A DNA stretch of 44,415 nucleotides from an uncultured Agathobaculum sp. (GTDB lineage: Bacteria; Bacillota; Clostridia; Oscillospirales; Butyricicoccaceae). The DNA is taken from contig NZ_CALWUN010000010.1 of NCBI RefSeq assembly GCF_944384735.1, positions 1-44,415 of the forward strand, given 5' to 3'. Below, piece by piece: positions 18,071 to 35,971 of this stretch (position 1 is the stretch's first letter; each line of letters begins with the position of its first letter). Below the pieces are notes generated by a model that was not told the origin of the DNA, did not search any database, and saw only the letters and a list, made by a program, of their open reading frames with translations. The position numbers were made by a program, and so were the translations under genes.

Positions 18071-19663
18071 ACTTTTACCCACAGATTTTCGACCGTTTTT
18101 TTGTTCTGTGCCCATAGCGTTTACCCCTTGTCGAATCCGGTTGGATGTTTACATTTTGTATCACCCGGCACGCCCGCCGCCGCGGCTTTGCGCGCGCTTT
18201 CGCGCATATTCCGCACCGCGCCCGCATAATAAAGATGGAAGGCCAACGGAATAAAGGAGGAAACGCCTATGTGTGGAATCGGCGGCTTTGTCGATTACAA
18301 GCGCGACGCGCGCCACTATGCCGCGGCCGCGCACCGCATGCAGCATGCGCTCACGCCGCGCGGCCCGGACGCGGCGGGCGAATATCAGGACGCGGACGCG
18401 GTGCTGGTGCACCGCCGCCTGATCGTCATCGACCCGGAGGGCGGCGCGCAGCCCATGCATGCGCCCGACGGGGACACCGTGCTGGTATATAACGGAGAGT
18501 TATATAATACAGAAGAAATACGCAAAGACCTGCTCGCGCGCGGGCACACCTTCCGCAGCCATGCGGACACCGAGGTGCTGCTGCACGCCTTCCTCGAGTG
18601 GGACACGGATGCCTTCGCCCGGCTCAACGGCATCTTTGCCTGCGCCTTCTGGCAGCCGCGCGCGCGGCGGCTGGTGCTGTGCCGTGACCGGCTGGGCGTC
18701 AAGCCCCTGTTCGTCGCGCGGCTGCACGGCGGGCTGGTGTTCGGCTCGACGATCGGCGCGGTGTTGTGCCACCCGGCGGTCGAGCCCGAGGTCGACGAGG
18801 ACGGCCTGCGCGCGCTGCTGCTACTCGGCCCGGCGCGCCCGCCCGCCTCGGGCGTGTTCCGGCAGATCGACTCGCTGCTGCCCGGCCACTACGCGGTTTT
18901 CACGCCCGAGGGCTACACCGACCGCGCTTATTGGCAGCTCGAGGCACGCGAGCATACCGACACGCTGGAACAGACCATCGAACGGACGCATGAGCTGATC
19001 TGCGACGCCGCAAAGCGGCAGCTGGTGAGCGACGTCCCGCTCGCCTGCTTCCTGTCCGGCGGGCTGGACTCGTCCATCCTGTCCATGCTGGCAGCTAAGG
19101 AATACGCCGCGCGCGGCGAAACGCTGCACACCTGGTCGGTCGACTACCGCGACAACGACAAATACTTCACCAAAAACAGCTTCCAGCCGAGCGGCGACAA
19201 CGAATTCATCCAGATGATGGCAGACACGCTCGGCACCCGCCACCACAATGTCGTTATCGAGCCGGACGCCCTGTGCGCCGCGCTGCTGCCCGCAACCGAC
19301 GCGCGCGACTTGCCCGGCATGGCCGACGTCGACTCGTCGCTGCTGCTGTTCTGCGCGGCGGTCAAAAACGGCGGCACGACCGTGTGCCTGTCGGGCGAAT
19401 GCGCTGACGAACTGTTCGGCGGCTACCCATGGTACCACCGCGAGGAAATCTTGTTCGAGGATACCTTCCCGTGGTCGCGGTCGGTCGGCCTGCGGCTCGG
19501 TCTGCTCGCGCCCGGCATCGTGCGGGATGGCGCGGCGTTCGTCCGTGAGCACTATCTGGCCACCTGCCGCCGCGCGCCCGGACTGCCCTCGGACAGTCCC
19601 AAGGACGCGCGCATGCGCGAAATGTTCGTGCTCAATCTGGACTGGTTTATGGCGACCCTGCTC

Positions 19664-19686
19664 GAAGGCCGCGTTGCAAAAGGATA
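19664..19686 (+). other. attL: asnB/element left junction
   Basis: The asnB sequence ends at CTGCTC followed by GA (19664-19665). After AG comes the arm gccgcgttgcaaaaggata (19668-19686), which is the exact reverse complement of the arm at 35516-35534. GA is the usual central crossover dinucleotide of TnpX/TndX-type serine recombinases. The 2-bp distance from GA to the arm is the same at both ends. Confidence 0.85.
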
Positions 19687-19700
19687 CCGTCCAAAAAAAC

Positions 19701-19734
19701 GCCGCAGGCACGGGGCCTGCCCCGTGCCTGCGGC
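19701..19734 (-). terminator. Terminator of the c-di-GMP signalling operon
   Basis: Perfect 15-bp stem GCCGCAGGCACGGGG/CCCCGTGCCTGCGGC with a 4-nt loop; on the minus strand a run of seven T follows. It lies just inside the left end of the element and is read in the asnB tail frame on the other strand. Confidence 0.9.
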
Positions 19735-19762
19735 TTTCGTCCAGTGATCGGTGTACCGCCCG

Positions 19763-21133
19763 TCAGTCGAGCACGCGCAGCTTGAAATGCCCCTTGCGGC
19801 CTTTTTTGATCTCGTAAAGCACCTCGTCGGCGATCCGGTACAGCTCGTCAAAGGAGCGGTGCTTGCGTCCGAACACGCCGCCCGCCGACATGGTCGAGCC
19901 GGCCTCCGGCCAGCGCTGCTGCATCATGCGGCAGTATGCGTCGCTCATGTGCAGCAGCTTCTGCTGGATGACCAGCAGTTGCTTACAGTCGGCTACGAAC
20001 ACCGCAAACTCATCGCCGCCCAGCCGGCAGACCATATCGGTCGACCGGAAACGCTTGGACAGCTGCTCGGCCACAAAGCGCAGCGCCTCGTCGCCCTGCT
20101 GGTGGCCGTACAGGTCGTTGATCCGCTTGAAGTTATCCAGATCGAGCATAAAGAACAGATAGCACGAAACGTGCTGCATCGCCTCGATGATGCGCGCCTG
20201 CGCGCCCTTGCGGTTGTACACGCCGGTCAGCGGGTCGCTGACCGCCTCCAGCTTGAGCGAGGTCTGCGCGTCGACCTGCCGGGACATATCAAACAGCACG
20301 CTGATGACGACCTCGCGCCCCTCCGCCGTGACCGTCTTGCGTCCGATACCATGCACCCACAGGTCGCTGCCGTCGCGCTTTTTCAGGCGGCAATCCAGTT
20401 CATACTGCTCGTTGCGCGCGACCGCCGCCGCGATCTCGTCGAACACAAATCCGCGGTCCTCCGGGTGGACGCAGTTGAGCACCATTCCCCGAATGCCGGC
20501 CTCATAGTCCTCCAGACTTTGGTAACCCATCATCTCGACCAGCCGGTCGTTGGCCAGATAGAGCGGGAAGCCCGGCTCGTGGTACCCGCCGACAATGCCG
20601 CCTGGCATGGCCTTGCCGATCAGCTCCAGCAGCTCATAACGGTTTTCCCGGCTGAGCTGCTCATCGCTGCGCGAAACATATTGCAGCGGGAAAAACTCGC
20701 CCTCCTGCTGGTACTTGCTCGCCTCGGATGCGTGCACCGTGTCCAGCCAGAAGCGTGTGCCCGTCCGGTGCAGCCCAGCCGTGACGCGCGCATGGTATCG
20801 CACCTGACCGCCATCCGGCATGTCGATGGACATTTCCATGCTGCAAAGGATGTGCCAGCAGTTTTCCCCCCGCTCTTTCTGATAGTAGTCCTCAATGGTA
20901 AATCCGATCGGGTCGGGCAGCTGTTCCAGCTCGGTGCGCAGCAGCTCGGCAAACGCCGCCTTGCCCACCGCAATCTCACCCTCCCCTGTGCCGACGCTGC
21001 AAAAATCATCCGGCAGCATCGCCAGCGTTGCGGCGGCGTCCCGCCGCGTCAGGTAGCAATCGAAAAAATGCGCTACCGCGGTATAAACGGGGTCATTCCT
21101 CCATTTGTTTGCAACGCCTTCCCCATAATTCAT
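19763..21133 (-). CDS. Diguanylate cyclase with NTF2-like and PAS domains
   Basis: 456-residue cytosolic signalling protein. Residues about 1-140 look like a SnoaL/NTF2-type ligand-binding domain (FFDCYLTRRDAAATLAML, ARVTAGLHRTG), 165-290 a PAS domain (YLANDRLVEMMGYQSLEDYEAG, then RLKKRDGSDLWVHGIG), and 295-455 a GGDEF domain. The catalytic loop RLGGDEF is intact, with DLDNFKRINDLYGH before it, so it should make cyclic di-GMP. RSTD five residues before GGDEF is a standard inhibitory I-site (RxxD). No membrane segment. It follows the GGDEF/EAL gene by 29 bp and shares its transcript. Which ligand the N-terminal domain senses is unknown. Confidence 0.9.
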   Translation of the reverse strand: MNYGEGVANKWRNDPVYTAVAHFFDCYLTRRDAAATLAMLPDDFCSVGTGEGEIAVGKAAFAELLRTELEQLPDPIGFTIEDYYQKERGENCWHILCSMEMSIDMPDGGQVRYHARVTAGLHRTGTRFWLDTVHASEASKYQQEGEFFPLQYVSRSDEQLSRENRYELLELIGKAMPGGIVGGYHEPGFPLYLANDRLVEMMGYQSLEDYEAGIRGMVLNCVHPEDRGFVFDEIAAAVARNEQYELDCRLKKRDGSDLWVHGIGRKTVTAEGREVVISVLFDMSRQVDAQTSLKLEAVSDPLTGVYNRKGAQARIIEAMQHVSCYLFFMLDLDNFKRINDLYGHQQGDEALRFVAEQLSKRFRSTDMVCRLGGDEFAVFVADCKQLLVIQQKLLHMSDAYCRMMQQRWPEAGSTMSAGGVFGRKHRSFDELYRIADEVLYEIKKGRKGHFKLRVLD

Positions 21134-21162
21134 ACCTCTTCCATCCTTTCCAAAGGGATCCT

Positions 21163-24100
21163 TTACCGCTTGTCGACCGCATCCATTTGCGCGCCCCGCG
21201 CGGGTCCCCCGCCCCCGCCAACCAGATGGTACACATCCTGCAATTCCATCGGCCGGTAATAGAAGTAGCCCTGAATCAGGTCGCAGCCAGTGTTGAGGAT
21301 GATCTCATTCTGCGACGCATGCTCGACGCCCTCCATGCACACGGTTTTGCCGAACTGATGGCAGGCGAACACGATACTGCGGATAAAATTCATCTTCGCC
21401 TCGGACTCGGTCACCTCGCGTACGAGCGACTGGTCGAGCTTGATGATGCTCATGGGATATTGCAGCAGCATGCGCAACGAGGAATAGCCGCTGCCAAAGT
21501 CATCCAGCGCGATCGAAAGCCCCATCTTCTGGCATTCCCGCACAAAACGGGTCAGCTCCTCGGGCTGTTCGTCCAGCGCGCTTTCGGTCAGCTCCGCCAC
21601 CAGTCCGCCGCCGTCCAGCTGGTATTGTTCCAGCGTGTCCCGCATGAACGGCAGGAACATGGGGTCGGACAGCTGGTGCAGGCTGACGTTGAACGTCAGG
21701 TAAAAGTCCGGGTTGTGCTGCCGCAGGCGGGCGCAGGCACGCACAACCTGCTCAAACACCCACCGGCCGACCTGCTGGATCAGCCCGTCCTTTTCCAGCA
21801 GCGGGATAAACTGCATGGGCGAAACGTCATGCCCCTCAAACTGCCAGCGCAGCAGCACCTCGCCGCCGATGGCCCTGCCTTCGCTGGCGCGTACCACAGG
21901 CTGGATGACGATGCGGAAATGCTCCATATCGTGCACCACATCCTCGCTCAGGCGCAGCGCCATGTTGGACATCCGCCGGATGCGCTGGATGTTGCGCAGC
22001 GAAAAATCCACATATTCCTGCTTGGTCTCCTGCCGCGCCACCCGGATAAGCGAGGACAGGTTTTCCACCAGATCATCGGACGACATATCGCCGTTCGGAT
22101 ACTCGATCACACCGAATGAGCACACATTCTGCACCGTGATGCCCATGTCCTCATAACAGCCGTGCGCCATCTGCCGGATCTCGCGCACCAGCTGGCCAAC
22201 CTCCTCCTGCGCGCAGCCCGGCTGCGTCAGCGCCATGCAGCGCACACCCTCCAACCGATAGAAGGAAAGCCGGTCAGACAGGTTTTCCACCAGTGCATTG
22301 GCCATCCGGCGCAGCAGCCTGTCTCCATAGGCGCGGCCGCGCGTACTGTTGATCTCGGTGATGCCGTTGAGGCAGAAGCCGATGACCATGGCCTTGCCGC
22401 CGTTCTTGCGCAGCTCCTCCAGCTGTTGGAACGCCCCGTGCTCCCGCAAAAAACCGGTAACCGGGTCGACGACAAAGCGCTCGTCCTGATGCGTGATCCG
22501 GCCGGAGAAAAAGAGCGGTTTGGTCTTGTCCTTGCTCCACTTCAGGATGCCGTAGCAGCGGATCCATTGGTTGTCGCCGTTGACATCGCGCACGCGGTAG
22601 CGCAGGTCGTGGATGGTGCGTTTTTCGGCCAGCATACTGTTGATATCCTGCCAGTACAACTGCCGGTACTCGGGCGTGCTGATGCGTTCTGCCCAGATCG
22701 GGATCAGGCCCTTGACCAGATTGCTCGGAAAACCGAAGGCATCCCGCATGTTGTCCGAAATATAGAACTGGTCGCTCTGCATGTCGCCCATATAGAAATA
22801 GCTGGAATGGTTGTCCCTGGACACCGATTGGAACAGCGACTCTGTATCGCAGTAAGCGCTGCTCAAAAACGTCTGGAACGCCGTCAGCGGGATGGTCTGC
22901 GTATCACGGTGCCGGCCGGGCAGCCGCCGGTTTTCCGAACGGCGCTCGACCCCCGGCAGGCCGCTGTTTTTCTGGTAATAGGCCCGCTTGTCCTCATACA
23001 TGTGCTGGTCGGCTACTTTCATCAGGTGTTCCAGGTCGATCGCGCTTTCATCCGACCATGCGTAGCCGACCGCCATGTTGAACTCGTCCGCGGCGATCCG
23101 GTCGCGCAGCCGCTGCAGCGTCTCCAAAAACTCCGGTTCCTTGCAGTTAAGGTACAGCGTGACGAATTCGTCGCCGCCCGTGCGGTAGACCAGTTCGGTG
23201 TCCACAGTCTCGCGCAGCAGGTCGCAGCAATGCTGGATCATGCGGTCGCCCGCCTCATGCCCCTGCTCATCGTTGATACGCTTGAGGCCGGTCACATCGC
23301 AGTAGATCACGCCGATCGAGTTGACCGCCAGCTGGCCGAACATCTCGGTCAGCGCGTGGCGGTTGTAAGCGCCGGTCAGCTGGTCACGGTAGCTTAAGTT
23401 GCTCAGGTGCTGCAGCATATCGCGCCGCCGCATCAGCGAGGCGGTAAAATACCCGATGACATTTAGGAACGATTCGATGATCGGCATCATCTGCTCGTCC
23501 GGGTTGTCCACACCGATAAAGCCGATCACACAGCCATCCAGCTTGATCGGCCCGGCGGCCAGACAATGGATATCCTGCGGTTTAAGGATGGCGTACGCTT
23601 CGGGATAGACCGTGCGGATGTCCTCCATCTCCCGGATGATAGTCACACCGTCCTCGACAAATATTGACAGCCACCACTCGATCGCGGACAGCGGCACCTC
23701 CTGCAGCGCATCAATCTGTGGCGTTACGTTGGGTGCACACCATTCGTAGGTGTTGACCGCAGTGTTTTCGTCCGCCAGTTCGAAGATGTACGACCGGTCA
23801 CAGTCAAAGGTGCTCCCAATATAGGAGAGTATGCGGCGCAGCGATTCCTCCACATTTGCGTCAGAAAAAATATACTGCAGGCATTCATTGAGGACGGTTT
23901 CGCTGCGTGCGTAGTAATACGGCGTCTTGGCTGCGCCCTCCGCATCCGCATTGATGGCAATCTCCAGCCGGTAATCCTGCCCATCCTCATGCACCAGCGT
24001 ATCCTTGAGCAGCATCCGTCGGTCGAGCACCGGGTTCTTATGCACCCATGAAACAAACTCCCCGGCGCGAAGCCTGCTGTTGGTACAAAACAGGCACGGA

Positions 24101-24273
24101 CGGTCTTTGCCCTGCAAGATCTTGTAGCACTTGCCGCCGATATACTCCTCATGGTAGCGGTAACCCAGGCATTCACGCAGCTGGCGGTTCATATATACCA
24201 ATTCATAGGTGTCAATGTTTGCGGCATAGACCATTTCATCCAGGTTTTCAAAAAAATCCCACATCCTGCTCAT
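21163..24273 (-). CDS. PAS-GAF-GGDEF-PAS-GGDEF-EAL c-di-GMP signalling protein
   Basis: 1036-residue soluble multidomain protein. In order: PAS (about 1-110, YMNRQLRECLGYRYHEEYIGG), GAF-like sensor (about 125-280), a GGDEF domain with intact RTGGDEF (about 370), a second PAS (about 480-600), a second GGDEF-like domain in which the loop reads YRLEGVRCM (degenerate, so not a cyclase), and an EAL domain (about 785-1030). The EAL signature reads EVLLRW, keeping the metal-binding Glu; DDFGSGYSSL, IKLDQSLV and EGVEHASQ are present, so phosphodiesterase activity is likely. The first GGDEF lacks an RxxD I-site. AAGGAGACCAGCCT supports the start at 24273; the longer frame runs into the promoter. Whether net synthesis or breakdown dominates cannot be read. 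Confidence 0.9.
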   Translation of the reverse strand: MSRMWDFFENLDEMVYAANIDTYELVYMNRQLRECLGYRYHEEYIGGKCYKILQGKDRPCLFCTNSRLRAGEFVSWVHKNPVLDRRMLLKDTLVHEDGQDYRLEIAINADAEGAAKTPYYYARSETVLNECLQYIFSDANVEESLRRILSYIGSTFDCDRSYIFELADENTAVNTYEWCAPNVTPQIDALQEVPLSAIEWWLSIFVEDGVTIIREMEDIRTVYPEAYAILKPQDIHCLAAGPIKLDGCVIGFIGVDNPDEQMMPIIESFLNVIGYFTASLMRRRDMLQHLSNLSYRDQLTGAYNRHALTEMFGQLAVNSIGVIYCDVTGLKRINDEQGHEAGDRMIQHCCDLLRETVDTELVYRTGGDEFVTLYLNCKEPEFLETLQRLRDRIAADEFNMAVGYAWSDESAIDLEHLMKVADQHMYEDKRAYYQKNSGLPGVERRSENRRLPGRHRDTQTIPLTAFQTFLSSAYCDTESLFQSVSRDNHSSYFYMGDMQSDQFYISDNMRDAFGFPSNLVKGLIPIWAERISTPEYRQLYWQDINSMLAEKRTIHDLRYRVRDVNGDNQWIRCYGILKWSKDKTKPLFFSGRITHQDERFVVDPVTGFLREHGAFQQLEELRKNGGKAMVIGFCLNGITEINSTRGRAYGDRLLRRMANALVENLSDRLSFYRLEGVRCMALTQPGCAQEEVGQLVREIRQMAHGCYEDMGITVQNVCSFGVIEYPNGDMSSDDLVENLSSLIRVARQETKQEYVDFSLRNIQRIRRMSNMALRLSEDVVHDMEHFRIVIQPVVRASEGRAIGGEVLLRWQFEGHDVSPMQFIPLLEKDGLIQQVGRWVFEQVVRACARLRQHNPDFYLTFNVSLHQLSDPMFLPFMRDTLEQYQLDGGGLVAELTESALDEQPEELTRFVRECQKMGLSIALDDFGSGYSSLRMLLQYPMSIIKLDQSLVREVTESEAKMNFIRSIVFACHQFGKTVCMEGVEHASQNEIILNTGCDLIQGYFYYRPMELQDVYHLVGGGGGPARGAQMDAVDKR

Positions 24274-24328
24274 AGGCTGGTCTCCTTGTCTGGTTCGTCG
24301 TGTTGCACAACCGGAGTCGGTATGCCTC

Positions 24329-24358
24329 ATTATATCATGTGACAATCTTCCAGTTCAA
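24329..24358 (-). promoter_or_regulatory. Promoter of the c-di-GMP signalling operon
   Basis: Minus strand TTGAAC (24353-24358), 18-bp spacer, TATAAT (24329-24334), 55 bp before the start at 24273. Confidence 0.6.
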
Positions 24359-24577: not shown

Positions 24578-24703
24578 ATGACCACCCTCGTTTCCACCGC
24601 ATCCGACAGGACGGCGTTGTCCGCCGCCGCGGTCAAGGCGGAGATCATCCGCATCCGGCAGGGCTTCGACCGGCCGCCGCCGTCCCCCGCCCCACACCCC
24701 TGA
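24578..24703 (+). CDS. Small ORF (41 aa) upstream of the recombinase
   Basis: A short frame, MTTLVSTASDRTALSAAA then VKAEIIRIRQGF, ending PPPSPAPHP. The case for it being real is a strong AAAGGAGG 11 bp before the ATG and its place 23 bp before the recombinase start, which has its own RBS. The Ala-rich then charged middle part (residues 14-33) could form one amphipathic helix; the proline-rich end is disordered. It could be a small recombination accessory factor or just a translated leader. No known family is recognised. Confidence 0.5.
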   Translation: MTTLVSTASDRTALSAAAVKAEIIRIRQGFDRPPPSPAPHP

Positions 24704-24726
24704 TCCCACCGAAAGGAGATGGCTGC

Positions 24727-26289
24727 ATGGTCGCCATCTATACCCGCCAGTCGGTCGAGCGCGCGGACAGCATCTCGGTCGAGCAGCAGGCGCAGCTGTG
24801 CCGCGACGCGCTGCCCGCGCGCGAGGCGCAGTCCTGCCGGGTCTATACCGACAAGGGCTTTTCCGGCAAAAACATCGACCGCCCCGCCCTACAGCAGCTG
24901 CTGACCGATGCGGATGCCGGTCTGGTCGATAAAATCCTCGTTTACCGGCTCGACCGTATCAGCCGCTCGGTGCACGACTTTACCGGACTGTGCGCGCGCC
25001 TGTCCGCACAGGGCGTGCATTTCCAGTCGGTCACCGAGGGCGTCACGCTCGACAACTCCCCCTCGGGCACGGTCATGGCGCAGATCATGATGGTGTTCGC
25101 CCAGTTTGAGCGCGAAACCATCCAGCGCCGTGTGACCGACAACTACTTCGCCCGCGCCAAAACCGGCATGTATCTGGGCGGCCGGCCGCCGTTCGGCTTT
25201 GCCAAAGGGCAGACCACGGTCGACGGGCGGCGTACCGCCTGCTACGTCCCGCACCCGACGCAGGCCGCGCAGGCGGCGGCGCTGTTTGCACGCTATTTGC
25301 AGGACGGCGAAACGCTCGGCTCGCTCGTGCGGCGGCTGAACGCCGACGGCCTGCCCGCCGCGCGCGGCGGCAGCTGGTCAACGCTGCCGCTCGGCCGACT
25401 GCTGCGCAACCCAGCCTTTGTCCGCGCGGACGCGGCGGTCTACCGCTATCTGCAAAGCCGGGGCGCGGCGATGAACGACCCGGTCGAGGCTTACGACCAG
25501 CGCCGCGGCTGCTACTGCTACGCGCCGCTGTCCACCGCGCCGCCCGGCCAGCGCCCGACGCGGCGCAAATTTTCCGACCTGACCGGCAGCTTCATCACCC
25601 TCGCCCCGCACGAAGGGCTGGTGGACGCGGACTGCTGGCTGGCCGTGCAGCACAAGCTGGACGCGGGACGTGCGCTCAAGCGCAGCGGCGCGGGCACGCA
25701 CAGCTGGCTGTCCGGCCTGATGCGCTGCCGCAAATGCGGCTATGCCATCACCGTGGTCGGCAAGCCCGCCGGCATGGGCGGGCATTACATCAACTGCGGG
25801 GGACGCAAGCGCGGCGCGGCGGTCTGCCCCGGCCGCAGCAAAACGGTCACACTGGAGCAGATTGAGGGCGCGGCCGAGGCCGCGCTGCTGCGGCACCTGC
25901 GTCAGCTGCGCGCCGCGCCGCTCCAGCTGCCGCAGCGCCGGGACGCGCAGGCCAACCGGCTGGAAGTGGCGATCGCCCGTCACGAGGCCGACATCGCCCA
26001 GCTGACGCAAAACCTTGCCCACATCCGCGAGCCGGATGTCATCCGCATCGTCGCCGCGCAGATCCAGCAGGCCAGCGACGCCCGCAACGCCTGCATCGCC
26101 CAGCGGGACGCACGGCTGCGCTGCGACGGGCCGGACACGCTCGAAGCCCTGTTTGACGCGGTGCCGGACGAGTGGCCGGGCTACACCCTCCCGGAGAAAA
26201 AGGCGGTCGCCCGCGCGGCCATCGCGCGCGTGCTGGTCGATGAGGACAGCGTCGAGGTCGTGTTCCGCGCCCAGACCGGTGCCCGGTGA
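24727..26289 (+). CDS. Large serine recombinase (TnpX/TndX-like)
   Basis: 520-residue site-specific recombinase, complete. The N-terminal resolvase domain (about 1-150) has the nucleophile Ser9 in IYTRQS, the SVEQQ block, YRLDRISRS (about 73-81, catalytic arginines), and FAQFERETIQRRV leading into the long helix. The recombinase domain (about 160-280: GGRPPFGF, LVRRLNADGLPAARGGSW, LLRNPAFV) and a zinc ribbon follow (CRKCGYAI at 337, then INCGGRK and VCPGR), then a coiled coil at 405-450. This is the architecture of recombinases that move elements between GA-centred att sites, which fits the ends of the element it lies in. GAAAGGAG precedes the ATG. Unusually, it lies about 5 kb from one end rather than beside it. 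Confidence 0.93.
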   Translation: MVAIYTRQSVERADSISVEQQAQLCRDALPAREAQSCRVYTDKGFSGKNIDRPALQQLLTDADAGLVDKILVYRLDRISRSVHDFTGLCARLSAQGVHFQSVTEGVTLDNSPSGTVMAQIMMVFAQFERETIQRRVTDNYFARAKTGMYLGGRPPFGFAKGQTTVDGRRTACYVPHPTQAAQAAALFARYLQDGETLGSLVRRLNADGLPAARGGSWSTLPLGRLLRNPAFVRADAAVYRYLQSRGAAMNDPVEAYDQRRGCYCYAPLSTAPPGQRPTRRKFSDLTGSFITLAPHEGLVDADCWLAVQHKLDAGRALKRSGAGTHSWLSGLMRCRKCGYAITVVGKPAGMGGHYINCGGRKRGAAVCPGRSKTVTLEQIEGAAEAALLRHLRQLRAAPLQLPQRRDAQANRLEVAIARHEADIAQLTQNLAHIREPDVIRIVAAQIQQASDARNACIAQRDARLRCDGPDTLEALFDAVPDEWPGYTLPEKKAVARAAIARVLVDEDSVEVVFRAQTGAR

Positions 26290-26332: not shown

Positions 26333-26902
26333 TCAGTCCAACAGGTCGGCAGTGGTATCTACATCGTCCAGTTCCCGCGCGCGCACAGCCTGCACATATA
26401 CGCAGTCTGTGTCGCGCAGCAGGTCGCGGCCGCCCTCGTCGCCCGACAGCGCGCGTAGCGCGGGCAGCATCGCCGGGCCGAACAGGCACGGATTGCCGCG
26501 CCGCTCGCCGAAGCACACGCGCGCGGCCTGCACCCCGGGCGCCGCCGCGTCCAGCAGGCGCGCCACGGTCTCGCCGGTCAGGTAGGGCTGGTCAGCCGCC
26601 ACGAATACCACCGAATCGCGCGGCATCAGCCGCAGCGCGGCCAGCCCCGCGCGGATGGTATACGACAAACCCTTTTCGCTTTCCGGGCTGGGTACGGCAT
26701 GCACCCCAAGGGTGCGCGCGCCCTCGCGCACGGCCGCATAGCGCGACACGACGGTCAGCGTACAGTCGTCGCGCCCGGCGACCAGCGCGGCCAGCATGTC
26801 CAGCCCGTGCCGGTACAGCGGCCTGCCGTCCAGCTCATACAGCAGCTTATTGACCCCGAAGCGCCGGCTGCTGCCCGACGCAAGATAAAGAATATGTTTC
26901 AT
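26333..26902 (-). CDS. mocA: MocA-like molybdenum cofactor nucleotidyltransferase
   Basis: 189-residue NTP-transferase of the MobA/MocA fold. It has an N-terminal nucleotide-binding loop LASGSSRRFGVNKLLYELDG (about residues 7-26; family LAAGxSxRxGxxK), the metal site VAADQPYL (about 100), and RGNPCLFGP (about 135). MocA attaches CMP to molybdopterin to make the MCD cofactor used by xanthine dehydrogenase-type enzymes. The small differences (SGSS for AGxS) do not exclude activity. Its ATG overlaps the stop of the hydroxylase large subunit (ATGA), so it is translated with the enzyme it should serve. Last gene of the operon. Confidence 0.88.
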   Translation of the reverse strand: MKHILYLASGSSRRFGVNKLLYELDGRPLYRHGLDMLAALVAGRDDCTLTVVSRYAAVREGARTLGVHAVPSPESEKGLSYTIRAGLAALRLMPRDSVVFVAADQPYLTGETVARLLDAAAPGVQAARVCFGERRGNPCLFGPAMLPALRALSGDEGGRDLLRDTDCVYVQAVRARELDDVDTTADLLD

Positions 26903-29202: not shown

Positions 29203-29660
29203 GCCTCCCCCTTTCTGCTGTCCAGATAGGCGCGGATACCGCGCAGCTGTCCCTCATAGCCCGAGCAGCGGCACAGGTTGCCCGCGAGGTAGGCGCGGAT
29301 CTCGTCGTCGGTCGGGTCGGGGTTCTCGCGCAGCAGCGCCACCGTGTTCATCACAAAGCCGGGGTTGCAGAAGCCGCACTGCTCCGCGCCCTGATCGGCG
29401 ATAAAGCCGACAAAGTCGGCCGCCTCCTCCTGCAGGCCCTCGAGCGTCTGGATATGGTGCCCGGCCGCGCGGGCGGCCAGCATGCTGCACGACAGCACCG
29501 GCGTGCCGTCCATCAGCACGGTGCACAGGCCGCAGTTGGCGGTCTCACAGCCGCGCTTGACCGAATAGCAGCCGTGGTCACGCACAAAGTCAATGAGCAG
29601 CGTATCCGCGTCGACAGACGCCGACACCGGCTTGCCGTTGAGCGTCAGTTTGATCTCCAT
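29199..29660 (-). CDS. xdhC: Xanthine dehydrogenase-type [2Fe-2S] subunit
   Basis: 153-residue electron-transfer subunit with two [2Fe-2S] clusters. The N-terminal plant-ferredoxin-like domain has CETANCGLC with a later Cys (VLSC) at about residues 38-60, and the C-terminal helical domain has QCGFCNPG (about 96) and [10 protein letters not shown] (about 131). All eight cysteines are present. No twin-arginine signal, so the complex is cytosolic. Its ATG is 3 bp after the FAD subunit stop, and its TGA overlaps the ATG of the Mo subunit, so the three subunits are translated together. Confidence 0.95.
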
Positions 29661-29663
29661 GCC

Positions 29664-30467
29664 TTACCCCTCCTTTGCCAGTGCGAGCGCCGCGCGGCGC
29701 ACCAGCACCTTGCAGATTTCGCGGCGATAGTCCGCGCCCGCGCGCGTATTGCTGCCAAACACCGCGCGGGATGCGATATCCTCGGCAAAAGCGCGCGCGC
29801 TGTCCTCTGTGATGCCCTGCGCCAGAACGCCCTGCTCGTCCGCAAAGACGGCGGCGGGCATCGGCCGCGCGCCGACCACGCAGGTATAGCCCCCGTCCCG
29901 CGCGGCCAGCGCGACCGTGAGCACGGGGAAGTCGGTCGAAATATTGCGCTGCGACAGGTAGACGACGCGCTCCGCCGCCTTGGGCACGATGACACCGACG
30001 AGGATATCGCGCGTCGTGCGCGGCAGCGCGGCGAAGTCCGCAAGCGCCATTTCGCCCGCGTGGTGCAGCCGCACCCGCGCGCCGAGCGCCAAAAACAGCG
30101 TCAGCACGTCGGAAAAGCCGAACCGCCCCCACAGGCTGCCGCCCAGCGTCGCGCCGTTGCGGAACTGCACGCCGACGATGTGACGCACGGCCTCGGCCAT
30201 CGCGCCGTCCGTGAGCGCCGCCAACCCTTCGTGCGTTTCGAGCGCGCGCAGCGAAACCATCGCGCCAATGCGGTAGTCGGTCTCGGTCTCTTCGATCTGG
30301 TCCAGCCCCAAATCGCACAGGTCGATCGCCGTACCGACCGTCCGGCGCTGCATCTTGAGCCACAGCATGCCGCCCAGCACCACATTATTTTTCTTCTGGC
30401 ATAGCGTGTATGCCTCATCCAGACTCTGCGCCCGCACATATTGATTGATCGAAAGCACCTTTCCCAT
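29664..30467 (-). CDS. xdhB: Xanthine dehydrogenase-type FAD-binding subunit
   Basis: 267 residues of the FAD_binding_5/CO_deh_flav_C family, the FAD subunit that passes electrons to NAD+. It shows an N-terminal NNVVLGGMLWLKM block (the AGGTD-like FAD site, here more divergent), RIGAMVSLRALETH, and the RNGATLGGSLWGR motif (about 110-122; family RNxATxGGN), followed by the flavin C-terminal domain with TTRDILVGVIVP. The start at 30467 follows AAGGACGGAAGG; the longer frame extends across the promoter. First gene of the operon FAD-FeS-Mo-mocA. Confidence 0.9.
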   Translation of the reverse strand: MGKVLSINQYVRAQSLDEAYTLCQKKNNVVLGGMLWLKMQRRTVGTAIDLCDLGLDQIEETETDYRIGAMVSLRALETHEGLAALTDGAMAEAVRHIVGVQFRNGATLGGSLWGRFGFSDVLTLFLALGARVRLHHAGEMALADFAALPRTTRDILVGVIVPKAAERVVYLSQRNISTDFPVLTVALAARDGGYTCVVGARPMPAAVFADEQGVLAQGITEDSARAFAEDIASRAVFGSNTRAGADYRREICKVLVRRAALALAKEG

Positions 30468-30558
30468 CCTTCCGTCCTTGTTTTTCAATATCCGGCCGTG
30501 GCCTTGGGCCGCGCCTGCCCGTTTTGCCCGCGCCGATGTTTCCACCCTCTTTGCAGTC

Positions 30559-30586
30559 ATTATATCACAGAAAGCGGTTTTTCCAA
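30559..30586 (-). promoter_or_regulatory. Promoter of the molybdenum hydroxylase operon
   Basis: Minus strand TTGGAA (30581-30586), 16-bp spacer, TATAAT (30559-30564), about 90 bp before the first start. It is divergent from the marR promoter 50 bp away. Confidence 0.6.
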
Positions 30587-30635
30587 AGCGGTTTCCGCTA
30601 TTTTTCCACAGAATCCGTTTTTCCATTTCCTCCGC

Positions 30636-30683: not shown

Positions 30684-30698
30684 TGGAGGGAAGTGTTT

Positions 30699-31139
30699 AT
30701 GGAACTGCGCGCCAAAATGGAGCAGCTCAACACCTGCGTCTGCAAAATGACCGAGCTGTACCGCACCTGGGCCAAGCGGCACGGCATGAGCTACAACACC
30801 ATGATGACGCTTTACGCATTGGGGCAGTCGCGCAAATGCACGCAAAAGCAGATCGCGGACGAATGGCTCATCCCAAAACAGACGGTCAACACGATCATCA
30901 AGGAACTGGAGCGGCTGGGCTATATCCGTTTTGAGCCACTGCCCGGCAGCAAGCAGAAGGTCGTCTGCCTGACGGAACCCGGCCGTGCCTATGCTGACAG
31001 CTGCCTGCACGAGCTGTACAAGATGGAATCGCGCGCACTGCGCTCGCTTGGACAGCCGCTGACCGATATTTTTATCGAGTGCAACCTTGCCTTTGCGGAA
31101 CGGTTGGAGGAGGAGGTGCGCGGCCATGCCGGAGAATAA
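30699..31139 (+). CDS. MarR-family transcriptional regulator
   Basis: 146-residue winged-helix regulator. The DNA-binding core is at about residues 45-95: CTQKQIADEWLIPKQTVNTIIKELERLGYI (split here by role: helix 2 CTQKQIADEW, recognition helix KQTVNTIIKELER), then a wing with PLPGSKQKVVCLTEPG. The N- and C-terminal helices form the dimer interface. The ATG at 30699 has GGAGGG 8 bp upstream; a GTG two codons earlier is less likely. The MATE exporter gene overlaps its end by 14 bp, so it is the probable target, together with itself through the twin operators upstream. The inducing ligand is unknown. Confidence 0.92.
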   Translation: MELRAKMEQLNTCVCKMTELYRTWAKRHGMSYNTMMTLYALGQSRKCTQKQIADEWLIPKQTVNTIIKELERLGYIRFEPLPGSKQKVVCLTEPGRAYADSCLHELYKMESRALRSLGQPLTDIFIECNLAFAERLEEEVRGHAGE

Positions 31140-32472
31140 CGCGCTGGCGCGGCAGTTTACCCTGCTGTCCCTGATGCGCTTTGCGCTGCCTAATATCATT
31201 ATGATGGTTTTCCTCTCCATGTATACCATCGTAGACGGAATGTTTATCTCACGCTATGCCGGCACGCTCGCGCTGAGTGCGGTCAACATGACCTATCCGC
31301 TCAACTGTTTGGAGCTGGCGCTGGGTATCATGCTCGCTTCGGGCGGCAGCGCGGTGATCGCACGGCAATTGGGGGAGGGCAGTCAGGACAGGGCGCGGCG
31401 CAATTTTTCCTTTCTGGTCGCTGTGTCGGTCGCGGTCAGTCTGGTTTTTTTGCTGTCGGCCCTCTTCTTTCTCGACCCTATTATTGCTGCACTCGGCACC
31501 AGCGAGGCTCAGTTTGACCTGTGCCGCACCTATGCACAGCTGCTGATGCTTTTTTCGCCAGCATTGTTCCTGCAAACCGCATTCCAAACGCTGTTTATCA
31601 CAGCGGGACGGCCCGGACTTGGCCTTGCGGCGACCGTGGGCGGCGGCCTGACCAACATCGTGCTCGACTATGTATTCATCGCGCGCCTGCACTGGGGCAT
31701 CGCGGGTGCGGCAGTCGCCACCGGATTGGGCTATCTTGTGCCCGCCGTAGTTGGGCTGGTCTTTTTCACCCTGAACCGGCGCGGTACACTGTTTTTCGTG
31801 CGCCCGCACGCAGACTGGCGCATGCTGCTGTTCGCTTGCGCCAACGGCTCATCTGAAATGGTCACCAACGTCGCAAACGCCATCACGACCTACCTGTTCA
31901 ACCTGATTTTCCTGCGCTACTGGGGCGAGGATGGCGTGGCATCCATCACGATTGTGCTGTATTTCCAGTTTGTGTTTACCGCGGTGTTTTTCGGCTTTTC
32001 CATGGGGATCGCCCCCGTGTTCAGTTATAAGTATGGCGCACAGGACGCGCCGCAGCTGCGGCAGCTGTTCCGCTACTGCATTGTCTTTGTCATCCTGTGC
32101 TCGGTATTCTGCACCGGACTTTCGCTCGCGATCATCCGGCCATGCCTTGCGCTGTTCACCGATATCGGCAGCCATGTGTTTGCCATTACGATCGAGGGCT
32201 TCCCGATCTACGCCATATCTTTCCTGTTCATGGGTATAAGCATTTTCGCCTCCTCGCTGTTTACCGCCTTTTCCGATGGGCGCGTGTCCGCAATCATCTC
32301 CTTCGCCCGCACGCTGGTGTTTCTGGTCGGTATGCTGCTGCTCCTGCCCCTGCTGATAGGGGAAACCGGCGTTTGGCTGGCCGTGCCCGCGGCTGAGATA
32401 CTTGGCATTGCAGTTTCCATCTATTATCTTGTCCGGCTGCGCGGCGTATACCGTTATGGCGCGCTAAACTGA
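31126..32472 (+). CDS. MATE-family multidrug/metabolite exporter
   Basis: 448-residue inner-membrane antiporter of the MATE family, with about 12 helices in two bundles. The family marks are visible: the N-terminal ALPNIIMMVFLSMYTIVDGMFISRYAG (read as LPNIIMM then YTIVDGMFISRY, about 20-45), GGSAVIARQLGEG (about 80), GLTNIVLDYVFI in the sixth helix (about 180), and the second-half VTNVANAITTYLFN and FGFSMGIAPVFSY. It exports drugs or metabolites using Na+ or H+. AGGAGGT lies 9 bp before the ATG, inside marR, which it overlaps by 14 bp. An IS200-type element follows directly, so the natural terminator is displaced. Confidence 0.93.
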   Translation: MPENNALARQFTLLSLMRFALPNIIMMVFLSMYTIVDGMFISRYAGTLALSAVNMTYPLNCLELALGIMLASGGSAVIARQLGEGSQDRARRNFSFLVAVSVAVSLVFLLSALFFLDPIIAALGTSEAQFDLCRTYAQLLMLFSPALFLQTAFQTLFITAGRPGLGLAATVGGGLTNIVLDYVFIARLHWGIAGAAVATGLGYLVPAVVGLVFFTLNRRGTLFFVRPHADWRMLLFACANGSSEMVTNVANAITTYLFNLIFLRYWGEDGVASITIVLYFQFVFTAVFFGFSMGIAPVFSYKYGAQDAPQLRQLFRYCIVFVILCSVFCTGLSLAIIRPCLALFTDIGSHVFAITIEGFPIYAISFLFMGISIFASSLFTAFSDGRVSAIISFARTLVFLVGMLLLLPLLIGETGVWLAVPAAEILGIAVSIYYLVRLRGVYRYGALN

Positions 32473-32587: not shown

Positions 32588-33049
32588 TTACTTGCCGCCC
32601 GTAAACGGGCCGCTAGATGGGATTCTCAGTTGCTCTCCCATCTCGTCCTCTTTTAGCTGATTCCTCACATACTCGGCAATTCGGCTCTCGTTTTTCCCTA
32701 CTGTATCTACATAATACCCTCTGCACCAAAATTCTCGGTTCCGGTACTTGTATTTCAACTCGCCGAATTGCTCATACAGCATTGTGCTGCTCTTCCCTTT
32801 CAGATACCCCATAAAGTGCGACACTGACATTTTCGGCGGTATCTCGACAAACAGGTGGATATGGTTCGGGCACGCTTCCGCTTCTATAATTTTTACCCCT
32901 TTCCACTCACATAACTGTCGCAGGATTCTCCCTATCGCCGCTTTCTTTTCCTGATAAAATACCTTCCTACGGTACTTTGGGGCAAACACAATATGATATT
33001 TGCAATTCCATCGCGTGTGCGATAAACTATTGATGTCATTCAGTCCCAT
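32588..33049 (-). CDS. tnpA: IS200-type transposase TnpA (Y1 HUH)
   Basis: 153-residue single-strand DNA transposase. The HUH metal motif appears as PNHIHLFVEIPP (about residues 62-73), and the catalytic tyrosine lies in WCRGYYVDTVGKN (about 108-120). HTRWNCKYHIVFAPKYRRKVF at the start (given as WNCKYHIVFAPKYRR) is the family beta strand 1. Length and order are normal, with no frameshift, so it may be active. Its ribosome binding site (GGGAGG) is part of a 13-bp hairpin stem. Confidence 0.95.
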   Translation of the reverse strand: MGLNDINSLSHTRWNCKYHIVFAPKYRRKVFYQEKKAAIGRILRQLCEWKGVKIIEAEACPNHIHLFVEIPPKMSVSHFMGYLKGKSSTMLYEQFGELKYKYRNREFWCRGYYVDTVGKNESRIAEYVRNQLKEDEMGEQLRIPSSGPFTGGK

Positions 33050-33058
33050 CTGAATGTC

Positions 33059-33115
33059 CTCCCTTTGCTATCGTTGTGCAGTTGACAGACCGCACTCTCA
33101 TTATAGCAAAGGGAG
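33059..33115 (-). promoter_or_regulatory. tnpA leader hairpin hiding the ribosome binding site
   Basis: CTCCCTTTGCTAT and ATAGCAAAGGGAG (33059-33071 and 33103-33115) form a 13-bp stem with a 31-nt loop. On the minus-strand RNA the 3' arm contains GGGAG of the tnpA Shine-Dalgarno. A TATAAT lies in the 5' arm and loop, so transcripts from outside would fold and be silent, while any native transcript starting inside would not. Translational silencing of this kind is known for IS200. Confidence 0.75.
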
Positions 33116-33185
33116 TTTTTTTATCATGTTCATCGCCATAGGCTTTTTTGAACCACTCGCCTAGCGAGTGGTTTTCTCTATACAA

Positions 33186-33216
33186 AAAGCTCCCCTGCGT
33201 CATGCAGGGGAGCTTT
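33186..33216 (-). terminator. Terminator of the xpt-permease transcript
   Basis: Perfect 13-bp stem AAAGCTCCCCTGC/GCAGGGGAGCTTT with a 5-nt loop, followed on the minus strand by TTTTT-like bases. It lies 11 bp past the permease stop. Confidence 0.85.
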
Positions 33217-33226
33217 CATTATACTT

Positions 33227-34660
33227 TCAGTTTTCCACTGTCTTGTCCTTGGGCAGCAGGATATTCAGGATGATCGCGACGAAGGCCGCGGGCACGATGC
33301 CCGAGCCGCCGAACACCAGCTGCACCGCCTGCGGCAGGCCGGCCAGCACCGCGCTGTTCGCGCCGAGGCCGTAGCCCAGGCCGAGCGCCACCGACACGAT
33401 GGTCATGCTGCGCGCGGTCAGCGGCTCGCGGGTGATCAACTGGATGCCGCTCATGACGATCGACGAGAACATGATGACCGCTGCGCCGCCGAGCACGCTC
33501 TGCGGCATGATCGACACGACCGCCGCCAGCTTGGGGAACAGGCCGCACAGGATGAGGAACACCGCGCCGCACGCAAGTGCAAAGCGGTTGACAACCTTGG
33601 TCATCGTGACAAGGCCGACGTTCTGACTGAACGAGGTGTTGGGCAGCACGCCGAACACCGCCGCAAACGACGAACCGAGGCCGTCGCACACGATACCGCC
33701 GGACAGCTCCTTATCGGTCGCCTCACGACCCATGCCGCCCTCCATTACGCCCGAAATATCGCCCACGGTCTCGACCGCGGTGACGATGAACATGATCAGA
33801 ACAGGTGCGATGGCGCGCATGTCAAACACCGGCTTGACCGGCAGGATCTCCGGGATGGCAAACCAACTGGCCGCGGCGACCTTGTCCCAGTTGATCACCC
33901 ACGCCTTGGTGTACTCGACGCCCTCGGCGGTAACGCCCGTCGGCGACAGGAACAGCGGCAGCACCGCGCACAGGATGTAACCGAAGATGATGCCCAGCAG
34001 GATGCAGGAATAGCTGAATACGCCCTTGGTGCAGTGCTTGAAAATCAGGATGACGACCAGCACCGCCAGCGCGATCAGCAGGTTTTCGACCGAGCCGTAA
34101 TCCTGCGCGCCCGAACCGCCGCCGAACGAGGCCACGCCCACGCTGATGAGCGACAGGCCGATCGACAGCACGACCGTACCGGTCACGACCGCCGGGAAAA
34201 ACCGGCGCAGCGGCTTGAGGAAAAAGCCCAGTACGCCTTCAAACAGGCCGCCGATGATCGACGCGCCCATGATCGCCCCATAGGCGAGGATGCCGCCGCC
34301 CATGACATTGGCCACGCTCTGGAACACGCCAATGAAGCCCGAGCTTGTGCCCATGATGATCGGCACCTTGCCGCCGACCGGGCCGATGGCGAACAACTGC
34401 ACCAGCGTCACAATGCCCGCGATCAGCATCGCGTTTTGCAGCAGCGATACCTGAATGGCGGCGAACTGCTCCGCGTCGCTCATCGCGGCGCACGCGCTCG
34501 TGATGATCAGGATGGGCGTCAGGTTGCCCACGAACATCGCCAGCACATGCTGCAGGCCGAGCGGGATGGCCTGCGCGAGCGGCAGCTTGGCGTGGAAGTC
34601 ATACGGCCCGAAAAATGCCTTTTCTTTGGCCGCACCGGCAGATTGGTTTTCTTTCTTCAT
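33227..34660 (-). CDS. NCS2-family nucleobase (xanthine/uracil) permease
   Basis: 477-residue inner-membrane symporter of the NCS2 family with 13-14 helices. Family marks: LPLAQAIPLGLQHVLAMFVGNLTP near the N terminus (as LGLQHVLAMFVGNL), IGPVGGKVPIIMGTSSGF (about 110), FFPAVVTGTVVLSIGLSL (about 165), and SFSQNVGLVTMTKVVNR (about 345; the QN-G-T substrate loop). It follows xpt by 58 bp on the same strand, the arrangement of the xpt-pbuX operon of Bacillus, which favours xanthine as substrate over uracil; this is an inference from context. GGGGAGGATACA precedes the ATG. Confidence 0.9.
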   Translation of the reverse strand: MKKENQSAGAAKEKAFFGPYDFHAKLPLAQAIPLGLQHVLAMFVGNLTPILIITSACAAMSDAEQFAAIQVSLLQNAMLIAGIVTLVQLFAIGPVGGKVPIIMGTSSGFIGVFQSVANVMGGGILAYGAIMGASIIGGLFEGVLGFFLKPLRRFFPAVVTGTVVLSIGLSLISVGVASFGGGSGAQDYGSVENLLIALAVLVVILIFKHCTKGVFSYSCILLGIIFGYILCAVLPLFLSPTGVTAEGVEYTKAWVINWDKVAAASWFAIPEILPVKPVFDMRAIAPVLIMFIVTAVETVGDISGVMEGGMGREATDKELSGGIVCDGLGSSFAAVFGVLPNTSFSQNVGLVTMTKVVNRFALACGAVFLILCGLFPKLAAVVSIMPQSVLGGAAVIMFSSIVMSGIQLITREPLTARSMTIVSVALGLGYGLGANSAVLAGLPQAVQLVFGGSGIVPAAFVAIILNILLPKDKTVEN

Positions 34661-34718
34661 TGTATCCTCCCCTGTATCTTGTGTTGCGCACAAAAACGGG
34701 AATGGGGCCGTGCGGCCC

Positions 34719-35297
34719 TCATTCCCGGAAACGCACCGTCTGGGTCTCCTCGTCCATACCGTCGACGATCGCCAGCGACTCGACCCGCAGCCCCTGCTCG
34801 CGCAGCAGCTTGCCGCCGCACTGGAAGCCCTTTTCGATCACAATGCCGATGCCCGCGACCGTGGCGTGCGCCGCCTGCGCGATCTGGCACAGACCCATGG
34901 CCGCGCAGCCGTTGGCGAGGAAATCGTCGATGATGAGCACATGCTCGCCCGGCTGCAAAAACCGGCTGGCCACAATGACCTCATACCGGCGCTTATGGGT
35001 GAACGATTCGACCGGCGCGGACAGCATCGTGCCGTCGAGGTTGATCGACTGCGCCTTTTTGGCAAACACGACCGGCACGCCGAAGTATTGCGCCGCGATC
35101 GCCGCAATGCCGATGCCTGAAGCCTCGATCGTCAGGATCTTGTCCACCTGCACATCGGCAAAGCGCCGCTTGAACTCCTTGCCGATCGCGTTGAACAGCC
35201 CAATATCCATCTGGTGGTTGAGGAAATTGTCCACCTTGAGCACATTGCCCGCCTTGATCACGCCGTCCTTCCGGATCCTCTCTTTCAATAATTCCAT
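34719..35297 (-). CDS. xpt: Xanthine phosphoribosyltransferase
   Basis: Salvages xanthine with PRPP to XMP. The 192 residues match Bacillus Xpt (194) from the start: MELLKERI, then [13 protein letters not shown] (about 20-32), [11 protein letters not shown] (about 53), and the PRPP loop [18 protein letters not shown] (about 120-137), followed by [11 protein letters not shown]. The start at 35297 is chosen by homology and because AAGGAAG is 9-10 bp upstream; an ATG three codons earlier is possible. First gene of the xpt-permease operon and the last one before the right end of the element. No purine riboswitch can be read upstream, unlike the Bacillus operon. Confidence 0.95.
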
Positions 35298-35515
35298 GCT
35301 TCCCATTCTTCCTTATCCGTTTCATCCGCAAACTATCTGTTAAAAGGATAACATTTTTCGCACGCGGTGTATACCCTTTTTTCACGGCTTTTTTACATTT
35401 TCACCCCAGCGTCCCGTGTCCTCCGACCTGCGCGCCGCATCGGAACGCCGCGGCGGCAGACGGCCAACCACGGACGGGCGCATGCCGCGCACGCCGGCAG
35501 CACGGCCTTGTCCGC
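35298..35515. other. Gene-free right end of the element
   Basis: About 218 bp between xpt and the right arm. It should hold the xpt promoter. A dyad TGTTAaaaggaTAACA (35338-35353) lies 41 bp before the xpt start and could be an operator. A GGTATACACC stretch (minus strand, about 35370) resembles a -10. The part next to the arm (35400-35515) is GC-rich with no gene or hairpin that I can support. Confidence 0.45.
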
Positions 35516-35539
35516 TATCCTTTTGCAACGCGGCGCGAC
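35516..35539 (+). other. attR: element/asnB right junction
   Basis: The arm tatccttttgcaacgcggc (35516-35534) is followed by gc, then GA (35537-35538), then CCGCAAGG of asnB. It mirrors attL exactly, including the 2-bp distance from arm to GA. Crossing over between the two GA dinucleotides would excise the element and give ...CTC GAC CGC AAG GAC..., in frame. Confidence 0.85.
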
Positions 35540-35971
35540 CGCAAGGACCGCATGAGCATGTATTCCGGTCTGGAAGTCCGCGTGCCGTTCTGCGACCACC
35601 GCATCGTCGAATATGCCTACAATATGCCGTGGGACTTCAAGGCGCTGGACGGCCGGGAAAAGGGCATCGTGCGCCGCGCCTTCGCGGGCGAGCTGCCGGA
35701 CGCGATCGTCCACCGCAAGAAAAGCCCCTACCCCAAGACCTTCCACCCAGCCTACACCCGCTTGTGCGCGGACTATGTGCGCCGCATTTTTGCCGACAGC
35801 GACTCCCCTGTGTCACGGCTGTTCAACCACGCGGCGGTCGAAGCGCTGATGGAGCGCCCGGAAAGCCTGTCCGAGCCGTGGTACGGCCAGCTGATGCGCA
35901 CGCCGCAGATTTTCGCCTATATCATCCAGCTCGACCGCTGGTTCCGCCGCTACCGCGTGCGGCTGGTGTGA
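35540..35971 (+). pseudogene. asnB: Asparagine synthetase AsnB, C-terminal part
   Basis: 143 codons plus stop that continue AsnB: RKDRMSMYSGLEVRVPF, CDHRIVEYAYNMPW, GREKGIVRRAF and HRKKSPYPKTF. These are conserved pieces of the synthetase domain that line the ATP/aspartate site. On their own they have no enzyme function. An ATG at 35552 could allow translation of 139 residues, but only a weak AAGGA is in front. It has the same orientation as the 5' part at 18269, so insertion, not inversion, separated them. The rejoined protein is 609 residues, the usual AsnB length. Confidence 0.9.

Follow-up and report, generated by a model that had tools for sequence, protein, structure and literature searches.

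A putatively excisable serine recombinase element in the asnB gene of Agathobaculum

Can a gene that is interrupted in the middle of a protein domain still be a working gene? The question is raised by asnB on contig 10 of an uncultured Agathobaculum sp. (genome G000, a 2.06-Mb bin of 94 contigs that is 83% complete), where two parts of the gene flank a large insert. The window, meaning the whole stretch of DNA that we analyzed, is this contig (44,415 nucleotides). A sequence-only reading of it had proposed that asnB is split by an excisable-looking element of about 15.87 kb whose removal restores the reading frame. We found that the unit between the two junctions measures 15,873 bp and has attachment-site-like (att-like) ends, a large serine recombinase (LSR) of its own, a recurrence at one codon across the genus, and end arms that co-vary. 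We regard it as very probably an excisable LSR element.

The split gene and the ends of the insert

The 5′ part of asnB (18269..19663, + strand; codons 1-465) encodes the glutaminase domain and the first two thirds of the synthetase domain, and is interrupted after the GA of codon 466 (GAC). GA stands at both junctions (19664-19665 and 35537-35538), and beyond the second GA the gene resumes with its 3′ part (35540..35971, + strand), consisting of the last 143 codons and the stop and encoding the last third of the synthetase domain. Both parts were delimited by reading frame and profile search, and their coordinates and common strand are exactly those of the sequence-only reading. When the two GA were joined in silico, we obtained an asnB of 609 codons with a single terminal stop, which confirms the restored gene that had been claimed. 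The TIGR01536 profile search placed the pieces at profile positions 1-453 and 453-517 on the same strand, and the break point falls inside one Pfam domain. Without the final third of the synthetase domain, which the 3′ part supplies, the 5′ part would be expected to be inactive by itself. As for the product of the enzyme, the 5′ part alone reached 361 bits against the TIGR01536 equivalog cut-off of 267.1 (asparagine synthetase, glutamine-hydrolysing), and the nearest solved chain, 7ylz, is named a hydroxyamidotransferase. Judged by these matches, the enzyme may make asparagine or may be a different amidotransferase of the AsnB type; Listeria AsnB, for instance, amidates peptidoglycan, according to the cited portion of PMC8554201.

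The inner ends of the insert, once joined, form an inverted repeat centered exactly on GA, with agreement at 18 of 20 positions: the inner left end read outwards from GA is AGGCCGCGTTGCAAAAGGATA, and the reverse complement of the inner right end is GCGCCGCGTTGCAAAAGGATA. Symmetry this high occurs at only 1 of 44,333 places in the window, and the rebuilt asnB site is weakly symmetric (11/20). Based on symmetry and genus comparison, we placed the left end (attL, GA plus the left inverted-repeat arm) at 19664..19689 and the right end (attR, the right arm plus GA) at 35513..35538, both on the + strand. Near-perfect joined inner ends and a weakly symmetric gene site are the make-up that would be expected of the attP and attB of an LSR, as discussed for the gin element in the cited portion of PMC5595907.

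The two arms of one element also match each other across elements. Among 15 elements, a set that omits G034 and G041 since no att arms are visible there in this register, 256 of 300 positions are shared between partner arms; when right arms were dealt anew, the mean was 229.4 (sd 4.6), and 0 of 20,000 permutations reached 256. With all 17 elements the agreement was 273/340 against 236.3 shuffled, and with the 12 genus elements (omitting G004, a near copy of G005) it was 205/240 against 186.5, in both cases with 0 of 20,000 permutations as good. Such matching between ends that lie 10-45 kb from each other would be most simply explained by one protein reading both, with relatedness adding to the signal.

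A candidate for this protein is the stop-free LSR of 520 amino acids encoded at 24727..26289 on the + strand. It exceeds the cut-offs of PF00239, PF07508, and PF13408, matches the integrase family phrog_95, and carries the resolvase, recombinase, and zinc-ribbon domains of the LSR class in one protein. Just before it, also on the + strand, lies a 41-amino-acid open reading frame (ORF; 24578..24703) with a strong ribosome site, which we propose as a candidate recombination directionality factor since similar ORFs precede the LSR in relatives. In 11 of the 14 genomes that were read for it (13 of the genus plus G030), an ORF of 36-44 amino acids (52 in G020, from an upstream start) with a strong ribosome site stands before the LSR; G008 and G013 have a weakly similar one and G023 a broken one. 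Its median dN/dS among the 11 genomes is 0.30 (52 usable of 55 pairs, with silent sites near saturation), and it matches no PHROGs family. The small partner proteins of two other gene-intervening elements have 53 and 72 amino acids, and the protein of about 40 residues encoded here perhaps aids the LSR in recombination. In G007, G008, G010, and G013, the asnB 5′ part, the small ORF, and the LSR follow one another on one strand, and the LSR starts 150-300 bp past the asnB break. With this order, the asnB promoter could itself drive the recombinase and so couple excision to asnB transcription.

Recurrence, selection, and history across the genus

We searched 87 genomes of the family, 25 of them from the genus, with the recombinase (E 1e-60) and the joined AsnB (E 1e-15). 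The gene is split at the same codon in 16 genus genomes (G000, G001, G004, G005, G007, G008, G009, G010, G011, G013, G015, G016, G018, G020, G023, G024) and intact in nine (G002, G003, G006, G012, G014, G017, G019, G021, G022); the split count includes G011, for which the 3′ part alone was found, G024, for which the 5′ part alone was found, and G016, where a partial 5′ part occurs along with two 3′ parts. The two 3′ parts of G016 (L090, L091) differ from each other, and this bin probably mixes two strains. Elements of the genus are about 11-44 kb long. An LSR of the window's type was found in 14 of the 16 split genomes, being 58-77% identical in the other genomes. In all 11 genus genomes that have both asnB halves on one contig, it is located between them and shares the strand of asnB. 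It was not found in split G004 and G024, whose asnB halves sit on separate or lone contigs, and at E 1e-60 it was found in none of the nine intact genomes, where the best match is a 47% fragment in G017. Records with the LSR are mostly titled Agathobaculum, and some Butyricicoccus or Eubacteriales.

Three split genomes (G001, G015, G023) correspond to records not titled metagenome-assembled genome (MAG), and the isolate-titled split records include Agathobaculum massiliense Marseille-P4005 (G001) and Agathobaculum sp. Marseille-P7918 (G015). The window does come from a bin of 94 contigs at 83% completeness, and an assembly chimera or MAG artefact could be suspected; the same junctions under isolate titles speak against an assembly error at either edge, which the earlier reading had kept in view, and leave its probability negligible. 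That reading had also looked to relatives for an uninterrupted gene, and G006, the sister of the window's genome, and G021 show the exact joined arrangement. Its worry that relatives might all share the split with decayed halves is not borne out, with nine of 25 intact and the halves stop-free wherever checked. Outside the genus, asnB is broken at or beside the same codon in G030, G050, G034, G035, and G041, and in G081, where only the 5′ part was found. LSRs of about 33-36% identity lie near the break in G034 (L095-L096), G035 (L097), and G041 (L098-L099), which form another genus of the family whose elements have other LSRs; in G035 the asnB 3′ part is oppositely oriented on its contig. Ruminococcaceae bacterium UBA1448 (L116), which is outside the genome counts, has an LSR of 73% identity followed by an asnB 3′ part, and an order-wide survey of 295 genomes gave two further asnB 5′ parts that end near this codon (G132, G342).

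Is the split gene still used? The 14 5′ parts and 16 3′ parts (two from G016) of split genus genomes that were checked are stop-free. The median dN/dS of the 5′ part is 0.126 between split genomes (91 pairs) and 0.138 between intact ones (36 pairs), and that of the 3′ part is 0.084 (119 usable of 120 pairs) and 0.103 (36 pairs), respectively. On sister branches, the amino-acid and silent changes in the 5′ part are 11.5/25.5 in split G000 versus 10.7/30.3 in intact G006, and 5/33 in split G018 versus 11.5/41.5 in intact G021; for the 3′ part they are 5.0/8.0 versus 3.5/11.5 and 0/6 versus 1/11. Selection is thus not visibly relaxed through being split, on sister-branch counts that are small. 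Both halves are stop-free where checked, and purifying selection acts on them with the same strength as in the intact species; we therefore take the split asnB to be still used, most simply through excision. Neither could another gene be found to stand in for it. No second AsnB over the family cut-off occurs in the window's genome (83% complete), none at E 1e-15 in G001 and G005, the two most contiguous split genomes, and no asnA over the cut-off in any of the 25 genus genomes. This weakens the earlier option of a passenger element in a strain with a second AsnB.

The element genes are about as diverged at silent sites as asnB itself. Over 10 genomes (45 pairs), the median pS ratio to the asnB 5′ part was 0.98 for xdhA, 0.87 for pbuX, 1.02 for xpt, 1.08 for mocA, and 1.18 for the LSR, and the rank correlation with asnB silent distances was 0.82 for pbuX, 0.80 for xpt, 0.70 for mocA, and 0.55 for xdhA. 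A host control with the acyl-CoA dehydrogenase gene (median pS ratio 0.72) was set aside because its G013 row is a paralogue. G009, G018, and G020 have a common gene order and LSR clade at asnB 5′-part silent distances of 0.39-0.48, with dN/dS of about 0.04-0.08. On the asnB tree the split state is clustered, with 1 of 500 shuffles as low.

The asnB promoter and the weighing of explanations

When would such a gene be rebuilt? Upstream of asnB lies a site, ATATT-N14-CATAA (18206..18229, + strand), that is conserved among relatives and resembles the sigma-E consensus. We compared 24 asnB upstream regions, 23 of the genus plus G030. The pattern ATA[TCA]N-N13-15-CATA was present within 100 bp before the start in 22 of them (shuffled mean 0.38), missing only G023 and G030, and the tighter ATAT[TC]-N14-CATA in 19 (shuffled 0.01); the site stands 61-69 bp before the start in those 22. 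In the window, both strands counted, the tighter form occurs once, before asnB. As a control we used spoIIIAA, a sigma-E gene in B. subtilis; 22 of its 24 upstream regions have the pattern (shuffled 0.21), 18 of them with ATAT[TC]-N14. No sigma-70-like site was found on the + strand of the window between 17900 and 20000; one nearby faces the opposite way, towards an acyl-CoA dehydrogenase gene. SpoIVA is over its cut-off in 20 of 25 genus genomes and, among 14 controls, in B. subtilis only. SpoIIIAA-like and SigK-family matches occur in 25/25 each, both below curated cut-offs, and at E 0.001 these two families also match in non-spore-formers. As described in the cited portion of PMC517825, B. 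subtilis asnO is an AsnB-type mother-cell gene under sigma-E. Just downstream of asnB, a gene at 36986-38407 has a weak SpoIID match and three peptidoglycan-binding stretches, and is possibly a spore or wall neighbor.

Taken together, these observations lead us to favor excision in the mother cell. The LSR would recombine attL with attR at GA, releasing a circle and rebuilding asnB. This would take place chiefly when the bacteria sporulate, in the mother cell, with sigma-E turning on asnB there; as that cell is destined to die, the split form would persist in the spore line. On balance we judge this account to be probable, with modest confidence. The sequence-only reading had suggested that asnB is switched on by excision, to which the undiminished purifying selection on both halves lends support and for which no excision product was seen; of the triggers it named (asparagine limitation, sporulation, or stress), sporulation is the one favored by the sigma-E-like promoter.

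Several observations weigh against this account. The promoter pattern was chosen after the alignment had been seen, and the bases past CATA differ between genes, being mostly CATAA before asnB and CATAGAGT after the spoIIIAA pattern. In further controls, the pattern occurred in 0 of 20 spoIVA upstream regions (120 bp) and 0 of 9 sigK upstream regions, as well as in only 1 of 14 LSR upstream regions and 1 of 12 asnB genes of other genera. For spoIVA, 1,500 bp of upstream sequence contained the loose pattern in 6 of 20 genomes against 1.45 shuffled, with the ATAT[TC]-N14 form in none; the gene apparently lacks the pattern because it lies inside an operon. A pattern search of the 25 genus genomes for the circle junction matched attL sites only. 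The asnB 5′ part and the LSR of the window are not adjacent, having a hairpin and two GGDEF genes between them. The LSR of G005 is 63% identical to the window's up to a frameshift, and those of G008 and G013, at 58 and 57% identity, stand apart on the LSR tree, for which reason recombinases have probably been exchanged among elements; LSR distances track those of asnB loosely (Spearman 0.46). The split state requires four changes on the asnB tree (25 genomes; at least three by strongly supported branches) and five on the rpoB tree (19 of 25 genomes; at least four), where it is hardly clustered, with 93 of 500 shuffles as low. By these trees the element has repeatedly been gained or lost. Precise excision may account for losses (G006, G021), and the element may also have been gained anew.

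The repeated changes, the nine intact genomes, and the weak clustering on rpoB are what an ordinary integrative island might leave behind, one for which the conserved asnB stretch would be the attachment site and asnB a dispensable gene inactivated by fairly recent insertions. Breaks at or beside the codon in other genera with LSRs of about 33-36% identity (G034, G035, G041) point the same way, as does the varying cargo. However, the halves remain stop-free where checked with dN/dS as low as in intact genes, split branches show no clear excess of change, the element genes are as diverged as asnB, and G009, G018, and G020 have their gene order and LSR clade in common at asnB silent distances of 0.39-0.48, so we consider the island unlikely. 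Excision could also restore asnB as a population switch in growing cells under nitrogen or asparagine limitation or stress rather than in the mother cell. Growing cells might well need AsnB given that no other asparagine synthetase was found, and the intact sister species would fit heritable excision; the conserved sigma-E-like promoter and the missing + strand sigma-70-like site argue otherwise, and we rate this switch as rather improbable. A functional enzyme put together from two separately produced halves, with no excision at all, seems to us very improbable. The 3′ part does begin near a Met preceded by AAGGA, yet the open frames of the 5′ parts continue into element DNA and reach 482 to 1,652 amino acids in the genus, with no conserved end, the split lies within one Pfam domain, and the kept att symmetry would go unexplained.

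Cargo, sigK, and known gene-intervening elements

Between its ends, the element carries metabolic cargo. Next to attL are a terminator-like hairpin found by a hairpin scan (19701..19734, - strand), facing the end of the GGDEF gene, and genes for a PAS-GGDEF protein (19763..21133, - strand) and a GAF-PAS-GGDEF-EAL protein (21163..24345, - strand), both identified by domain search and not found in the other asnB regions fetched. Past the LSR, on the - strand, follow a MobA-like NTP transferase of molybdenum cofactor metabolism (26333..26926, mocA/pucB-like by domain and family search) and three subunits that match below equivalog cut-offs: a xanthine-dehydrogenase-type molybdenum subunit (26899..29202, xdhA-like), an iron-sulfur subunit (29199..29660, xdhC-like), and an FAD subunit (29664..30626, xdhB-like). 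A MarR-type regulator (30693..31139, domain search) and a MATE transporter (31087..32472, family search) lie on the + strand. On the - strand again are an IS200/IS605 transposase (32588..33049, family search), which entered later and did not turn up in the other asnB regions fetched, a xanthine/uracil permease (33227..34693, pbuX-like by family search), and a xanthine phosphoribosyltransferase above its cut-off (34719..35306, xpt). An Rfam STnc490 match beside the transposase (32588-33173) probably belongs to the insertion sequence instead of representing an Hfq RNA.

PHROGs searches of nine of the 12 larger element proteins (omitting xdhA, xdhC, and MATE) and the small ORF gave no phage structural or lysis genes; the families matched were integrase, invertase, transposase, and some whose function is unknown, and the MarR regulator had a weak helicase-loader match. 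In IMG/VR, a pattern-based scan did not confirm any LSR relative. We rejected a prophage identity on these two grounds. No relaxase or conjugation genes of an integrative and conjugative or mobilizable element were found in the 12 larger proteins, each scanned by Pfam or NCBIfam.

The xdh block lies inside the element in 10 genomes and elsewhere in others, and the elements of G005 and G023 are without it. It was rejected as a fixed part of the element, since it is found elsewhere in 10 genomes and, in G011, apart from the LSR. The block, in some cases with pbuX and xpt, occupies several chromosomal places in G006, G021, G022, G019, and G011 (L156-L158, L160, L166), and in G006 genes related to the window element's two GGDEF genes accompany it at another place. 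No att arms were found at its ends in G006 and G021. By its placement, the block is presumably a wandering metabolic block of the genus.

A second gene, sigK, is interrupted in the genus. On contig 17 of the isolate G015 (L173, L230), it breaks off after its 5′ part, near 31851, and the short remainder lies near 42185; the element of about 10.3 kb between them encodes a 593-amino-acid serine recombinase with three domains and, by Pfam, AMP-binding, two ferredoxin-oxidoreductase, and sodium-symporter proteins. In G000 (L167), G010 (L172), and G008 (L174), sigK breaks off at the same codon as in G015, and no 3′ part was found for these three in the stretches read. In G006 (L168), G021 (L169/L170), and G011 (L171), the break is at a second site, near HIVKK; a serine recombinase stands directly at the break in G006 and G021, and in G021 the rest of sigK is on another contig. 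By these breaks, the genus would also seem to harbor skin-like elements. A bolder and rather doubtful extension would be that Agathobaculum has a programmed mother-cell genome in which several LSRs excise several elements (asnB, sigK) during sporulation. Development genes would be rebuilt while metabolic blocks are discarded, namely xanthine oxidation and salvage from asnB, and ferredoxin oxidoreductase with CoA-ligase from sigK in G015. The elements might then be maintained for the sake of both functions, with host metabolic genes taking the place that phage genes have in other elements; we offer both suggestions just as tentatively.

If mother-cell excision is correct, an AsnB-type enzyme gene in a gut-commensal genus would be a new target, with metabolic rather than viral cargo. 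The 16 split and nine intact species with co-evolving att arms form a natural set useful for reading LSR specificity, and automatic annotation may label asnB a pseudogene in species where selection indicates a working gene.

How does the insert compare with known systems? XisF of heterocystous cyanobacteria is an LSR that excises the fdxN element from a gene during differentiation; the window's LSR is distantly similar to its family NF041201 (101.7 bits, far below the cut-off of 375) and is not a member. Sporulation gene-intervening elements of the skin, SP-beta, vfbin, gin, and yin kind, in the part of the literature available to us, interrupt sigK, spsM, spoVFB, gerE, and yabG of Bacillus and Clostridium, and are recognized by a frame restored on precise removal, a serine recombinase of their own, and inverted-repeat att sites about a dinucleotide, all of which are present here. 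The closest likeness is to gin in gerE of Bacillus cereus ATCC10987, described in the cited portion of PMC5595907 as non-phage, with serine recombinases and inverted-repeat att sites about a central dinucleotide, and as excised from a mother-cell gene in sporulation with an extra factor, GirX. Unlike gin, the asnB element has one LSR rather than three, a different target, metabolic cargo, and a genus-wide spread, and is known from sequence alone. The skin element in sigK of B. subtilis and C. difficile (PMC5025042, cited portion) shares an LSR and a regulated, precise excision from a mother-cell gene, with the C. difficile directionality factor under sigma-E and SpoIIID; skin is prophage-like, whereas the asnB element interrupts an enzyme gene and no phage structural gene was recognized in it. 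SP-beta in spsM (PMC4191935) and yin in yabG (PMC10747680), as far as the cited portions go, likewise interrupt a sporulation gene that is rebuilt, but are a phage genome or phage-like. B. subtilis asnO is not reported as interrupted in the cited portion of PMC517825, and it is likened to the window's asnB as an AsnB-type gene. Among the matches listed in the open-licence PubMed Central literature, there was no report of an interrupted asnB or of such elements in Agathobaculum or Butyricicoccus. The insert is a skin/gin-like gene-intervening element with no phage genes recognized, new by its target, its metabolic (xanthine) cargo, and its spread over a genus.

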